A stretch of DNA of 64,000 nucleotides, taken from Paucimonas lemoignei (GTDB taxonomy: Bacteria; Pseudomonadota; Gammaproteobacteria; Pseudomonadales; Pseudomonadaceae). Numbering within the stretch: the first letter of the stretch is position 1; the number at the start of each line of letters is the position of its first letter. Shown here piece after piece: positions 181 through 3,831 of the stretch. The stretch is from the NCBI GenBank assembly GCA_900475325.1, contig LS483371.1:620001-684000 (forward strand). Reading direction: 5' to 3'. The position numbers and the translations under genes are program-made. The notes under the pieces are model-generated. The model was not told the DNA's origin. It searched no databases and saw nothing but the letters and a program-made list of their open reading frames with translations.

Positions 181-208
181 TTGACTCACTTTTCCTCAGG
201 CGTAATCT
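181..208 (+). promoter_or_regulatory. Sigma70-type promoter of the peptide/SagB/AurF operon
   Basis: TTGACT at 181-186 and TAATCT at 203-208 are separated by 16 bases, close to the sigma70 consensus. Transcription would start near 215, about 47 bases before the ATG of the small peptide gene at 262. This placement supports the peptide as the first gene of the operon. Confidence 0.6.
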
Positions 209-261
209 GAATGTGTCAGCAACATCTGCTGGCATCTATTAATAAGCGAAAGGTGAATACT

Positions 262-327
262 ATGAAACGCATTTCTCTTGAGTCTAAAAAAATTTCCAAT
301 CTTAACTGCCTGGTGAAAACCCGGTAA
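262..327 (+). CDS. Candidate 21-residue precursor peptide
   Basis: This 21-codon gene reads MKRISLESKK followed by ISNLNCLVKTR and then TAA. It has a good Shine-Dalgarno sequence (AAAGGTG, seven bases before the ATG) and sits just downstream of a sigma70-like promoter. The peptide is basic, with five Lys/Arg, one acidic residue and a single Cys at position 16. It precedes two redox tailoring enzymes and an exporter on the same strand, the usual layout for a ribosomally made, modified peptide. It is not PqqA, because the Glu-xxx-Tyr pair is absent, and I recognise no other precursor family. A role as substrate is inference; it could instead be a leader peptide that controls the downstream genes. 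Confidence 0.6.
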   Translation: MKRISLESKKISNLNCLVKTR

Positions 328-347
328 GTTCAAGTCATAGGTATCAA

Positions 348-377
348 GCGAGCGAGGAGTGCCGGCTACTCGCTCGC
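348..377 (+). promoter_or_regulatory. Intergenic hairpin between peptide gene and enzyme genes
   Basis: GCGAGCGAG at 348-356 pairs perfectly with CTCGCTCGC at 369-377 across a 12-base loop. No T tract follows, so it is not a classic terminator. Hairpins here often lower readthrough or stabilise the precursor mRNA so that more peptide than enzyme is made; that role is inferred. Confidence 0.55.
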
Positions 378-399
378 AACAGATTGATGGGGTCTAGGT

Positions 400-1470
400 A
401 TGCTTTTTAACTCCAATATATTCTTTCTTGCCCGCCCACCGAACCTGATTGTCTGGAACTGCGAGACGCACGAGCAATTCGAACTTTCAGTGAACCATCA
501 AATACGTTTGCTTGAGTTGATAGGTGATCCAGATCGTTTCAATAGCGAGAACCCCATTGATTTGGGATTTTCCGATGCAGGTATCATCCTTGCGTCTGAG
601 GCTGTTAGCGTCAGGCCGTGGGGGTGGGATGTTCTTTCTAAACTGTTCCACGTCGGTACAAAAAATGTGCCTCTGGACTGTCAGCCCCTCTCTGCAAATG
701 ATTGGGCAGATCAATACCTGGCGCATTGTGATGAGGTATTGATCAAATCAAGGCCCGTTGAGAACTGTAAGGATGAGCCGAGTGTGAAGGTTGTTCTTCC
801 GAGACCTTCCCCTTGCAAAGGCGATTTAACGTGTGCATTAACATCCAGGAAGACGGCCAGAAACTACAGCGTTAAAGGGATTGAATTAGAGGTTTTATCA
901 GCCATCCTGTATTACGGTCTGGGGTACCTTTCAGAGCGGGAGGATCTGGAGTCAGCATCATTACCTGAAGGTCTCCGCAAGCGACGAAGCAGCCCGTCAG
1001 GTGGTGGCTTGAATTCAACCGAAGGGTACTTATACGCTAATAATGTTGAATCAATACCCAAGGGGTTGTACTACTACAATCCAGTCGATCATTCGCTGAC
1101 GTTACGCAGCTCTATCGAAGGTCAGGTGCTTGGCTCGCTCCTTAACGGACAGCATTTCATTGACGAAATGCCTTTTGGGCTTTTCCTCACGTCGCGCCTG
1201 GACAAACTCTGGTGGAAATACGAACACTCCAGAACCTACCGTATGGCACTGATTGAAATCGGGCACATCTCCCAAACAATTCAGCTGATCGCCACGTCCT
1301 GCGGCCTGCAGACCTGGCTCACTGGCGCATTGAACGATAGCGAAATAGAAGGCTTGATCAACGCACAAGTAGGAACAGAAGAAGTCATGTTTTTCGTGGG
1401 TGGCGGATACGGCGACGGCAGCGCTATTCCATCAAGCCTGAAAACCCAAATTAATAGCCGGGGAAAATGA
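400..1470 (+). CDS. SagB-like FMN-dependent nitroreductase-family oxidoreductase
   Basis: This 356-residue protein belongs to the SagB/ThcOx branch of the nitroreductase fold, which uses FMN to oxidise substrates such as azolines in modified peptides. The FMN-binding RKTARNYS lies at 150-157, the RRSSPSGGGLNSTEGY segment at 195-210, and the characteristic KYEH...RTYRMALIEIGHISQ region at 273-292. The N-terminal 130 residues resemble the helical domain common in SagB proteins, including a WDVLSKLFHVGT segment near 76-87. No SagC/SagD cyclodehydratase lies nearby, so its substrate is unlikely to be a standard thiazole/oxazole peptide, unless that enzyme is encoded elsewhere. It follows the peptide gene and hairpin and overlaps the next gene by four bases. 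Codon use is AT-richer than in the pha genes. The family call is firm; the reaction is not known. Confidence 0.75.
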   Translation: MLFNSNIFFLARPPNLIVWNCETHEQFELSVNHQIRLLELIGDPDRFNSENPIDLGFSDAGIILASEAVSVRPWGWDVLSKLFHVGTKNVPLDCQPLSANDWADQYLAHCDEVLIKSRPVENCKDEPSVKVVLPRPSPCKGDLTCALTSRKTARNYSVKGIELEVLSAILYYGLGYLSEREDLESASLPEGLRKRRSSPSGGGLNSTEGYLYANNVESIPKGLYYYNPVDHSLTLRSSIEGQVLGSLLNGQHFIDEMPFGLFLTSRLDKLWWKYEHSRTYRMALIEIGHISQTIQLIATSCGLQTWLTGALNDSEIEGLINAQVGTEEVMFFVGGGYGDGSAIPSSLKTQINSRGK

Positions 1471-2414
1471 TGAGAAGCTTCAAGGAATGCTTAACGCTAG
1501 AACATTGGAACAAAAATTCGTCAGTTCGCGCCAAGCCGAATATTTACTCAATGCCGTTATTGCGATGCAGTTCTAGCCTTACGAAAGACTGGTACCCTAG
1601 AAGCATGCTGCAATTCTTGACTCGGCCGGATTTTAAAACCGTACCCGATGAATGTATTGAGAAATTGCTTGCTCACCATCTTGTATATTTTTTGGACTAC
1701 ACAACCTTCCTAGAGCACATGATGGTCAATCGATCGCTGGAAATTATCGTCCATGACATGCTTGAGGTCGGGATTCCCGAGCCGATGAGGGCTGCAGGTC
1801 TTCAGATATACACAGACGAGGGCTACCATGCACTGTTTTCCAATCAGCTAGCTGCTGAGGTGGCAGGCATATATGCTATCGAGAGAAACGCTCGCACACC
1901 GTCAAGGATTCAGAAGCTGAATGCGCTGATTGCAAGTACATCTGAAGATTCCGTTGCCGCAGTCTATTTTGCTATAGGTTTTGTTTCTGAAACGATAATA
2001 GCCAAAGAAATATCATGTATAAAGTCAGATTCTCTCATCCCTCAAGTATACCGTTTGCTTCAGGATCATCTCGAAGACGAAGCTGTTCACGCGTGTTTTT
2101 TTGCTGAGGTCTTTGGGACCGTGTGGCGAGGTTGCTCAGAGCAACAGAGGGACTCCATTGCGTTTACGCTTCCATTGTTGTTGAGGATATTTTGTTCCAC
2201 CGATACTGCTTGGCTTTCAAATGTTTTATTGGAAGCGAACGTGTCCGTTACGACAACAAAAGCCATTGCTGCACAGGCGGATAATGTGACGCTCATAAAC
2301 GATAGGGTTAGCCGTGTGGCGTCATTAACTTTTGCTACGCTGCGAAATAATGGCTTTTTTAACAAGGAGAAGTACTCCCGCCATTTTCGAATGGAAGGTT
2401 TGACTTATGTCTGA
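1467..2414 (+). CDS. AurF/CmlI-type diiron N-oxygenase
   Basis: This 315-residue all-helical protein carries a complete AurF-like diiron ligand set: E83, E118-x-x-H121, E175, H201 and E205-x-x-H208. From memory, the AurF ligands are E101, E136, H139, E196, H223, E227 and H230, and the spacings agree within three residues throughout. AurF and CmlI oxidise arylamines to hydroxylamine, nitroso or nitro groups, so this enzyme probably oxidises an amine nitrogen. Its ATG overlaps the end of the SagB-like gene and its 3' end overlaps the exporter gene, so the three are translationally coupled. AT-rich codons suggest horizontal acquisition. Its substrate may be the small peptide, a fragment of it, or a free metabolite; the sequence does not say. 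Confidence 0.72.
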   Translation: MMRSFKECLTLEHWNKNSSVRAKPNIYSMPLLRCSSSLTKDWYPRSMLQFLTRPDFKTVPDECIEKLLAHHLVYFLDYTTFLEHMMVNRSLEIIVHDMLEVGIPEPMRAAGLQIYTDEGYHALFSNQLAAEVAGIYAIERNARTPSRIQKLNALIASTSEDSVAAVYFAIGFVSETIIAKEISCIKSDSLIPQVYRLLQDHLEDEAVHACFFAEVFGTVWRGCSEQQRDSIAFTLPLLLRIFCSTDTAWLSNVLLEANVSVTTTKAIAAQADNVTLINDRVSRVASLTFATLRNNGFFNKEKYSRHFRMEGLTYV

Positions 2415-3594
2415 AGTTCGACTTGGAGCAGACAGTCCGGCCAAGGCGTCGGCGATAGTCCTGCTCCTGTTAATGGTCCTGCTTGGCGTATTTCCTCTCG
2501 ACGTAATTCTTCCTTCATTCCCCGCGCTGTCAGCGCACTTCGATACACGCTCCTCCGACATAGCGTTATCGATAAGTATATTCGCCATCGGAGTCTCGAT
2601 CTCGCAGTTTTTTCTCGGGCCGCTATCTGACCAAATAGGGCGTAAATCATTGCTGATCATGGGGCTGATGATTTCCATCCTCGGCGCTATTGGCTGCGCA
2701 AATGCCGTGGAGTTTGCAACCTTCATGATCTTCCGAGTGCTGCAAGCTTTGGGCTGTGGTTGCTTTGTGCTAAGCAACGCGCTTGTCCAAGACATCTTCA
2801 GCAGCGAGGAGCGTGACCGGGTGCGGATATTGATGACCAGCGCCAGCGGGCTGTTTATCTCTTTGTCCCCACTCGCCGGAACGCTGCTGCAAAGTACGTT
2901 GGGTTGGACGGGTAGTTTCTATATTTTTTCCTTGATCGCTGCCGCGGTGCTTTTGCATGCAGTTCTGACGCTGCCACTCCCTCTGAATACTGTGGCGCGC
3001 AGAGCGCCATGGCTCAGCTCCTACATATCCATCCTCTTCAATGCGCAGTTCATGGGGTTGGCTCTAATTGCCGCTATTGCATTTACCTGCCATTTTTCGT
3101 TCATCGCCGTTTCACCCATCATCTTTCTGGATATCTTTGAGCTGTCCCAACTTCAGTTTTCACTGGCACTGTTGGGCTATGGCGTTGCGTATGTGATAGG
3201 CGGGCTGATCGCCCACCGCTTGCAGAGGACCATGACGCATCGACAGCAGCTTCTCGTTGGCTTGTTGCTGATTGGCGCAGCAGGTTTGTTGCTGATATGT
3301 CTTTCGCTAACAACGGAGAGGGGATTTTTCGTGGTTCTACTACCGATGCTGATTTGCACAGCGGGAATTACCATCACACGACCGGTAGCAACGTCGCGGG
3401 CTATGGATATTTTTCCTGATAATGCAGGGGCTGCCGCTTCGATGCTGAATACTGTGGTGTTTGTTTCTGGAGGCATTGCCAGTGCGCTCGTAGGTCTGAT
3501 GATTTCCAGTTTCGAAATAGTCCTGGCAACTGTCTTCATCGTGCTCAGCCTGACGGGGTTTTTAATTGTGCATACGCTATTTGGTTCTCGATGA
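2407..3594 (+). CDS. Bcr/CflA-type MFS drug exporter
   Basis: This 395-residue protein is predicted to span the inner membrane 12 times. The first helix carries the LDVILPSFPAL segment typical of Bcr/CflA proton antiporters (about 31-41), and motif A, GPLSDQIGRK, follows at 71-80. Bcr/CflA members export small drugs such as bicyclomycin, a modified dipeptide. The start overlaps the AurF-like gene by eight bases, so it is part of the same operon. It most likely exports the product of the two enzymes and gives self-protection. An unrelated small-drug pump is the alternative, but the coupling argues against it. Confidence 0.75.
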   Translation: MSEVRLGADSPAKASAIVLLLLMVLLGVFPLDVILPSFPALSAHFDTRSSDIALSISIFAIGVSISQFFLGPLSDQIGRKSLLIMGLMISILGAIGCANAVEFATFMIFRVLQALGCGCFVLSNALVQDIFSSEERDRVRILMTSASGLFISLSPLAGTLLQSTLGWTGSFYIFSLIAAAVLLHAVLTLPLPLNTVARRAPWLSSYISILFNAQFMGLALIAAIAFTCHFSFIAVSPIIFLDIFELSQLQFSLALLGYGVAYVIGGLIAHRLQRTMTHRQQLLVGLLLIGAAGLLLICLSLTTERGFFVVLLPMLICTAGITITRPVATSRAMDIFPDNAGAAASMLNTVVFVSGGIASALVGLMISSFEIVLATVFIVLSLTGFLIVHTLFGSR

Positions 3595-3614
3595 CCTCTA
3601 CTGAAGGAGCACTG

Positions 3615-3713
3615 ATGACCGTGGACCTGGACCTGAATTTCTTCCTGTCGGCCATGAGCGGGCAGATCCAGACCGAAGTCGAGCGGCAGCTGGATAAGGC
3701 GCTGGTTTCCTGA
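3615..3713 (+). CDS. Unknown 32-residue peptide after the exporter
   Basis: This short frame encodes 32 residues, MTVDLDLNFF...QLDKALVS. It starts 20 bases after the exporter stop and has a strong Shine-Dalgarno sequence, AAGGAG, five bases before the ATG. The peptide is acidic and its middle could form an amphipathic helix. I do not recognise it. It may be a fourth product of the operon or the remaining end of a native gene cut by insertion of the block. A REPIN follows 25 bases downstream. Confidence 0.4.
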   Translation: MTVDLDLNFFLSAMSGQIQTEVERQLDKALVS

Positions 3714-3737
3714 TCAGCCGACGACATGTGCCAAACC

Positions 3738-3831
3738 CTGTGGGAGCGAATTCATTCGCGAAGAGGCCAGTACATCCGAAAGAGATTGTTCGTGTGTAAT
3801 TGCCCCTTCGCGAATGAATTCGCTCCCACAG
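3738..3831. repeat. REPIN (GGGAGCGAATTCATTCGCGAA class)
   Basis: Two inverted copies of CTGTGGGAGCGAATTCATTC flank a short spacer and would form a long hairpin. The same head recurs at 6135, 11591, 19942, 39248 and 61181. REPINs are non-autonomous Pseudomonas elements mobilised by RAYT transposases; no RAYT gene is in this window. Confidence 0.85.

Follow-up and report, generated by a model that had tools for sequence, protein, structure and literature searches.

A nitroreductase domain that works without a YcaO protein makes dehydrophenylalanine in the pfl cluster of Pseudomonas, and in the available portion of that report the authors propose different dehydroamino acids as possible products of further YcaO-free nitroreductases (PMC12636437). 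Here we describe a compact operon from a 64,000-nt stretch of Paucimonas lemoignei DNA (bases 620001-684000 of LS483371.1, the one contig of 5.92 Mb that makes up the host genome, whose relatives place it in the genus Pseudomonas; hereafter the window), in which a gene for a 21-residue peptide is followed by genes for a SagB-like flavin mononucleotide (FMN) dehydrogenase, an AurF-like diiron oxygenase, and a Bcr/CflA-type exporter of the major facilitator superfamily (MFS). We consider it likely that this is a minimal biosynthetic operon resembling those of ribosomally synthesized and post-translationally modified peptides (RiPPs), whose peptide would be dehydrogenated, oxygenated, trimmed, and exported.

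The pfl and pos clusters (PflA-PflF; Os1348-1351 of strain Os17) have in common with this operon their occurrence in Pseudomonas, the lack of a protease gene nearby, and a YcaO-free SagB-type nitroreductase, which acts on a ribosomal peptide in pfl/pos and would do so here (available portions of PMC12636437 and PMC7726476). However, the pfl/pos precursor described in those portions is a long peptide of the nitrile hydratase leader peptide (NHLP) type, 85 residues in Os17 as compared to 21-26 here, and its partners are a GNAT protein, an alpha-ketoglutarate (alphaKG)-HEXXH enzyme, and a multinuclear non-heme iron-dependent oxidase (MNIO) fused to the nitroreductase; AurF is unnamed in PMC12636437 and PMC7726476 (0 occurrences). 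The bacillamide oxidase BmdC resembles our SagB-like protein in joining an oxidase domain to one like a RiPP recognition element (RRE), but it works in nonribosomal peptide synthetase (NRPS) assembly on a carrier-bound thiazoline and not on a ribosomal peptide (PMC8795117, available portion). The oxidases of linear azole-containing peptides and thiazole/oxazole-modified microcins (LAP/TOMM; SagB, McbC, ThcOx) are FMN dehydrogenases of the same type, and ThcOx has the same K-Y pair; in contrast to their pathways, neither the operon nor the host genome has a YcaO cyclodehydratase, and only 26 of 146 distinct peptides contain Cys. A search for YcaO (PF02624) gave no match at E≤0.001 in the operon or anywhere in the one-contig genome and did find the E. 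coli control, in agreement with a sequence-only reading of this DNA that had noted the lack of a cyclodehydratase. Azole formation is therefore unlikely, and we rejected it. In pathways of the pyrroloquinoline quinone (PQQ) type (PqqA, mycofactocin), precursors have ~22-30 residues, few of them invariant. The present peptide is likewise short with few invariant residues, which points to a small molecule over a variable bacteriocin; the operon differs in its enzymes, in the absence of a radical S-adenosylmethionine (SAM) enzyme or stand-alone RRE protein, and in its invariant Glu7 and Asn13.

The same reading had named the three large genes SagB-like, AurF-like, and Bcr/CflA, and family searches confirmed these calls, the last just under its cut-off. 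The first protein matches TIGR03605 (E 5.3e-33, 114 bits vs a cut-off of 78.4). Its best NCBIfam model by score is TIGR04511, putative peptide maturation dehydrogenase (128.8 bits, far under the cut-off of 240), a family with partner genes in Xanthomonas that are absent from our operon. In the predicted structure (predicted local distance difference test [pLDDT] 79; <50 at residues 70-89), residues 1-340 align to ThcOx 117-469 and BmdC 6-324, with a root-mean-square deviation of 12-15 Å across both domains owing to a difference in their relative placement, and of 2-3 Å for the catalytic domain alone against stand-alone nitroreductases. K273-Y274 aligns with ThcOx and BmdC, and the nitroreductase fold, SagB signature, and catalytic K-Y of the SagB/ThcOx/McbC class are thus all present. 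BmdC has a conserved active-site Tyr260; its N-terminal domain is named RRE-like, and ThcOx has additional RRE copies (PMC8795117, available portion).

The second protein matches Pfam AurF (E 1.6e-16, 60.8 bits vs a cut-off of 29.6), and in its predicted model (pLDDT 88) only AurF and CmlI, both arylamine N-oxygenases, match at E≤0.001, albeit at 15-18% identity in the structure alignments. The set E82, E117xxH120, E174, and H200xxxE204xxH207 (P0001 numbering) is invariant in 21 aligned sequences and aligns with the residues that serve as metal ligands in AurF, so that the protein has the AurF fold with all seven ligands (E, ExxH, E, HxxxExxH); the difference from AurF and CmlI is its place beside a peptide gene. 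The third protein matches TIGR00710 best among 58 families (E 4.4e-54, 184.4 bits); since this lies below the curated cut-off of 200.9, we call it only Bcr/CflA-type. The Bcr/CflA family is known for small-molecule substrates.

The four genes are inherited together. A search for AurF in 398 Pseudomonas genomes gave 104 strong matches (best E < 1e-30; the next genome follows at 8.8e-19), and extra loci were taken from a scan of the contigs of 84,980 species, which detects only genomes with one of two exact 8-residue patterns and of whose 124 confirmed relatives the best 80 were used, all Pseudomonas; an earlier contig scan that used the window's sequence as its query gave no relatives. Of 186 aurF loci, 184, drawn from these two overlapping sources, also hold sagB and the exporter. 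The exporter lies behind aurF every time (184/184), and in 183 a motif search places the peptide at the same position; in the remaining locus (L090) the peptide reads through at its C-terminus, and sagB is reduced to a 3' piece. The 183 collapse to 146 distinct sequences, to which we refer below as distinct loci; species sampling is uneven and the loci share ancestry. Gene order is peptide-sagB-aurF-exporter in 146/146, the distance from the aurF stop to the estimated exporter start is ≤30 nt in 97.9%, and all three large frames are long in 137/146; nine loci have any short frame, the exporter's being short in two (L089 and L108). Two aurF loci without an upstream sagB stand outside the 184: L101 lies at a contig end, with a peptide match at the other end of the same contig, and L105 (genome G031) is decayed, its sagB gone, its aurF broken, and no peptide present. 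L101 and L108 belong to one genome (G189) with two operon copies, one of which has short aurF and exporter frames.

A search blind to gene neighborhood led to the same association. A profile built from 20 peptides matched 105 of the 398 genomes, namely 103 of the 104 strong-aurF genomes (the exception is the decayed G031) and 2 of the 294 others. The 20 profile members, among them the window's copy (E 1.8e-10 in its own genome), match by construction. The two genomes without aurF (G159 and G308) carry deletion remnants of the operon (L214/L215), one with the peptide, the 5' part of sagB, and the exporter, the other with a peptide of altered C-terminus and the exporter. An extra weak match in G355 (E 0.007) is probably due to chance. 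The exporter frame is open in all three decayed loci that lost enzyme genes (G031, G159, and G308), which fits a role in self-protection, though with n = 3 only and with the two short exporter frames noted above.

Most copies occupy one chromosomal site. Among 116 distinct loci with long flanks, 103 lie between genes that we take from their sequences to be rlmI and ilvD, and the other 13 have neither neighbor; these two genes are far apart in the window's genome (399 kb and 5.58 Mb). In the 103 loci the median gap is 297 nt on the upstream side of the operon and 259 nt on the downstream side, the gaps exceed 800 nt in 4 and 7 loci, respectively, and there is therefore mostly no room for a further gene such as one for a protease, a YcaO protein, or a radical SAM enzyme. 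The four genes are thus self-contained in most loci. Beyond Pseudomonas, no aurF match was found at E≤1e-12 in 368 other genomes of the class sample (0/368). A SagB profile at E≤1e-30 matched 12 of 299 genomes of the phylum, namely the window's, two operon holders of the same genus, and nine outside the genus, in none of which tblastn detected a relative of aurF or of the exporter within ~1.5 kb. Some AurF-less SagB-like genes have short open reading frames (ORFs) of their own: on a Maritalea myrionectae plasmid (NZ_CP021331.1, L189:4687-7104), a 25-aa ORF with a strong ribosome site and, by eye, a hairpin accompanies SagB-like and MFS genes, no diiron oxygenase being annotated in 10.9 kb, and this may be an AurF-free cousin; on a Roseateles plasmid (L190:3571-4795), a 36-aa ORF with a ribosome site lies directly ahead of a SagB-like gene; and in four genomes of one genus (L195, L196, L198, and L199), a near-identical 31-aa ORF with a ribosome site does so.

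The peptide itself is 21-26 residues long and ends in R or K in 141/146 distinct loci. Asn13 is present in all 146, E7 in 145, A12 in 144, K2 in 142, L14 in 140, and L6 in 136, with Met in the remaining 10; the window's peptide alone has Ser at position 12, and the one E7Q exception (L085) has its sagB split into three frame pieces. E7 and N13 stay fixed while aurF identity to the window's copy drops to 30-43%. The best conserved part is N-terminal and central, MKxIxLE...(I/L)AN(L), and the C-terminal end differs between clades. The sequence-only reading had set beforehand, as a check, that a short peptide with a conserved C-terminal end should always lie upstream of the SagB/AurF pair; its position held (by motif in 183/184, with read-through in L090), and the profile search likewise ties it to aurF, but conservation proved to lie in the N-terminal and central part instead. 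Across 128 distinct loci with 23-codon peptides, the ratio of nonsynonymous to synonymous polymorphism (pN/pS) was 0.43 in the peptide frame vs 1.11 and 2.61 in the other frames, and third codon positions were the most variable. The peptide is under purifying selection at the protein level. One could still suppose a chance ORF ahead of two unrelated oxidoreductases in an ordinary MFS resistance operon, and each gene taken singly does belong to a common family; however, the peptide's presence in 183/184 loci, the frame-specific selection, and a gene order kept in 146/146 refute this reading, to which we give practically no credence.

A ribosome site AAGGAG precedes the peptide in 121/146 distinct loci, whereas the scanned motifs are absent before sagB in 130/146; the sagB starts were estimated via tblastn, and the windows and motif lists differed slightly between the two scans. 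Such a contrast would be expected if the peptide were needed in excess. At the peptide's ribosome site, 97/146 distinct loci have ACAAGGA, which we take to resemble the Gac/Rsm target consensus; the window's own site differs. The near-invariant center, as opposed to a hypervariable core, together with a pump of a small-molecule type, suggests a small, conserved product.

The gap of ~55-91 nt between the peptide and sagB folds into a strong hairpin. In 44 sequences, chosen by script from 76 diverse gap sequences (the 32 omitted include most outgroup loci with a different loop), 96.4% of cells pair vs 83.5% when shuffled and 40-55% in slid controls; two-sided changes occur in 51 cells vs a shuffled mean of 14.9 (reached in 0/500), and 7/8 pairs show one vs 5.1 (reached in 3/500). 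The tested structure was derived from the same alignment, and the pair counts lean to the main clade. The element AGTGCCGGC is present in 113/146 loci, and several outgroup loci have a hairpin with a different loop. A covariance model matched in 47 of 199 genomes, once in each and always starting 4-28 nt behind the peptide match; its filters were strict, and 58 genomes up to G198 hold the peptide, so divergent hairpins were missed. A search for known RNA families gave no convincing match, only SorY at E 0.22 on the opposite strand.

A short ORF and a conserved, covarying hairpin followed by enzymes are the classical layout of an attenuator, and one could envision the peptide as a leader peptide that controls, by translational or transcriptional attenuation, enzymes and a pump acting on an unrelated free amine. 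TTTTT lies within the gap in 18/146 loci, and L099 and L100 have hairpins that look terminator-like by eye. However, the peptide has no run of one amino acid, its conserved residues include the N-terminal K2, I4, L6, and E7, and E7 and N13 persist across the aurF divergence given above. Moreover, pairing of the ORF with the 5' arm of the hairpin showed no clear excess over codon-shuffled controls (mean z -0.3; 3/143 loci < -2), and the hairpin persists in 114/143 loci when folded together with the ORF. The alternative pairing of a classical attenuator was thus not found over 143 loci, a result that covers this mode of attenuation only, and we regard attenuation as unlikely.

A second alternative is that the peptide serves the SagB-like or the AurF-like enzyme as a small protein partner (an activator, chaperone, or lid), with both enzymes using a free small amine. 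Invariant central residues, little variability, and tight linkage would all be expected of such a partner, and exporters of this family are known for small molecules. Yet the peptide has just 21-26 residues, and SagB homologues of RiPP pathways work on such peptides; in addition, the ORFs that precede the AurF-less SagB genes (L189, L190, and L195/L196/L198/L199) differ from one another, which among these six loci would be more in keeping with substrates than with an unchanging subunit. We think a partner role quite improbable.

We favor a substrate role, in which the 21-26 residue peptide would be made, probably in excess in view of its strong ribosome site, the hairpin behind it, and the mostly missing site ahead of sagB, and be acted on by both enzymes. 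The MKxIxLE N-terminus, laid out like other RRE-binding leaders, would probably dock on the SagB-like flavoenzyme at its RRE-like N-terminal domain, and this enzyme would take two hydrogens from a residue of the (I/L)-A-N-L segment, independently of YcaO like the pfl nitroreductase. The AurF-like enzyme would oxygenate the peptide, most likely at nitrogen with carbon being possible; a host peptidase would trim it; and the Bcr/CflA-type pump would export a small, perhaps bioactive product and probably provide self-protection too. The locus does present what marks a RiPP system, a gene-encoded precursor in a fixed operon with putative modifying enzymes, and this supports the peptide-derived natural product proposed in the sequence-only reading, in which the two enzymes would tailor the peptide, AurF by N-oxygenation, and the exporter would carry the product.

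Several points weigh against this proposal. A modified form of the peptide is so far unseen, and the operon lacks a protease gene. Characterized AurF relatives act on arylamines, and the peptide lacks an aromatic amine. In 7/146 distinct loci (L085 included) the sagB frame is <300 aa by frame count and the peptide still fits the motif; draft errors or start-site estimates may lie behind some of these. Finally, when 9 N-terminal domains of SagB-like proteins were scanned against Pfam, PqqD was not found, and hhalign against 13 PqqD-type sequences (of 26 PqqD matches) gave probabilities <1%, no higher than catalytic-domain controls, in what is a weak test with shallow profiles. Sequence comparison thus gave no sign of an RRE. 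In the model the domain is beta-beta-beta-alpha-alpha and overlies the N-terminal regions of both ThcOx and BmdC, a hint of an RRE at the level of the predicted fold; the structure-match table covers mainly residues 127-343 and is uninformative on N-terminal domain folds.

In the window (Table 1), the peptide gene with its ribosome site, the hairpin, the two redox enzymes, and the exporter follow one another as first described, with overlaps of 4 nt between the sagB-like and aurF-like frames and 8 nt between the latter and the exporter frame. The promoter claimed for the operon fared less well: TTGACT and TAATCT are visible by eye, but promoter scoring favors a different site (152-179), and the assignment is a weak guess at consensus level; relatives have the consensus TTGCCA-N16-TATTAT at this place. 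At the position of the window's leader hairpin, the consensus of 146 loci has TGTCAC-N6-GTGACA. Relatives also have a strongly conserved block upstream of the peptide, with a palindrome, GGAATATTCC, ahead of the -35 box.

Table 1. Features of the operon and its right flank in the window.
Feature	Position	Strand	Details
Possible sigma-70 promoter, weak	181..208	+	TTGACT 181-186, N16, TAATCT 203-208, read by eye
Hairpin in the 5' untranslated region, 8 pairs including one G-U	214..234	+	By eye and from the upstream consensus of 146 loci
Ribosome binding site of peptide gene, AAAGGTG	249..255	+	
Putative precursor peptide gene, MKRISLESKKISNLNCLVKTR, 21 codons	262..327	+	ATG 262, stop 325-327
Intercistronic RNA hairpin, perfect 9-bp stem, loop with AGUGCCGGC	348..377	+	Covariation
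SagB-like FMN dehydrogenase: N-terminal winged helix-turn-helix/RRE-like domain and nitroreductase domain	400..1470	+	
AurF-like diiron oxygenase, all 7 metal ligands	1467..2414	+	
Bcr/CflA-type MFS exporter	2407..3594	+	
Outside operon: right copy of 127-bp direct repeat with 3' end of PHA_gran_rgn gene	3620..3746	+	

The block was originally drawn to 3713, but the operon ends at 3594. The ORF at 3615-3713, considered as a second peptide or operon member, was rejected: it corresponds to the final ~30 codons of a PHA_gran_rgn gene, duplicated within a 127-bp direct repeat (125 identical bases), whose left copy lies ~380-510 nt before the window; the intact gene is just left of the window (L002:14306-14584). 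This repeat and a second one of 81 bp (78 identical) flank the operon (window 3620-3821; L002:14491-14906), suggesting insertion or duplication at the polyhydroxyalkanoate (PHA) locus. GC content is 48.7% in the operon vs 60.0% in the window from 3751 onward. The operon therefore looks acquired, inserted between the PHA_gran_rgn gene and PHA granule genes on its right, presumably phaI/phaF.

The enzyme families and the logic of RiPP biosynthesis are already known, and there is a fair chance that their combination is a new RiPP class. A literature search, which did not extend to subscription papers, found none describing the locus, pairing SagB with AurF, or combining these families with a 23-mer, so a prior description is possible. 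In its fullest form the proposal is possible but doubtful: a new four-gene class with a precursor of 21-26 residues, whose invariant Glu7 and Asn13 would be within or next to the part that becomes the product, a SagB dehydrogenase working without YcaO, and an AurF-type diiron enzyme that would be the first to act on a ribosomal peptide, all jointly giving, by a PQQ-like logic, a small N-oxidized, dehydrogenated metabolite exported by a small-molecule MFS pump, with the AurF-free pairs of short peptide and SagB in other Proteobacteria forming a wider family.

Roughly one in four Pseudomonas species genomes in the sample (105/398, two of them with only remnants) carries the locus, which in most cases occupies the same chromosomal position, and at ~3.3 kb for all four genes its reconstitution in E. 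coli would be straightforward. If the proposal is true, AurF-type diiron enzymes would join the repertoire of peptide tailoring, and the operon would offer a very small test system for what YcaO-free SagB enzymes do, a question that PMC12636437, in its available portion, leaves open.

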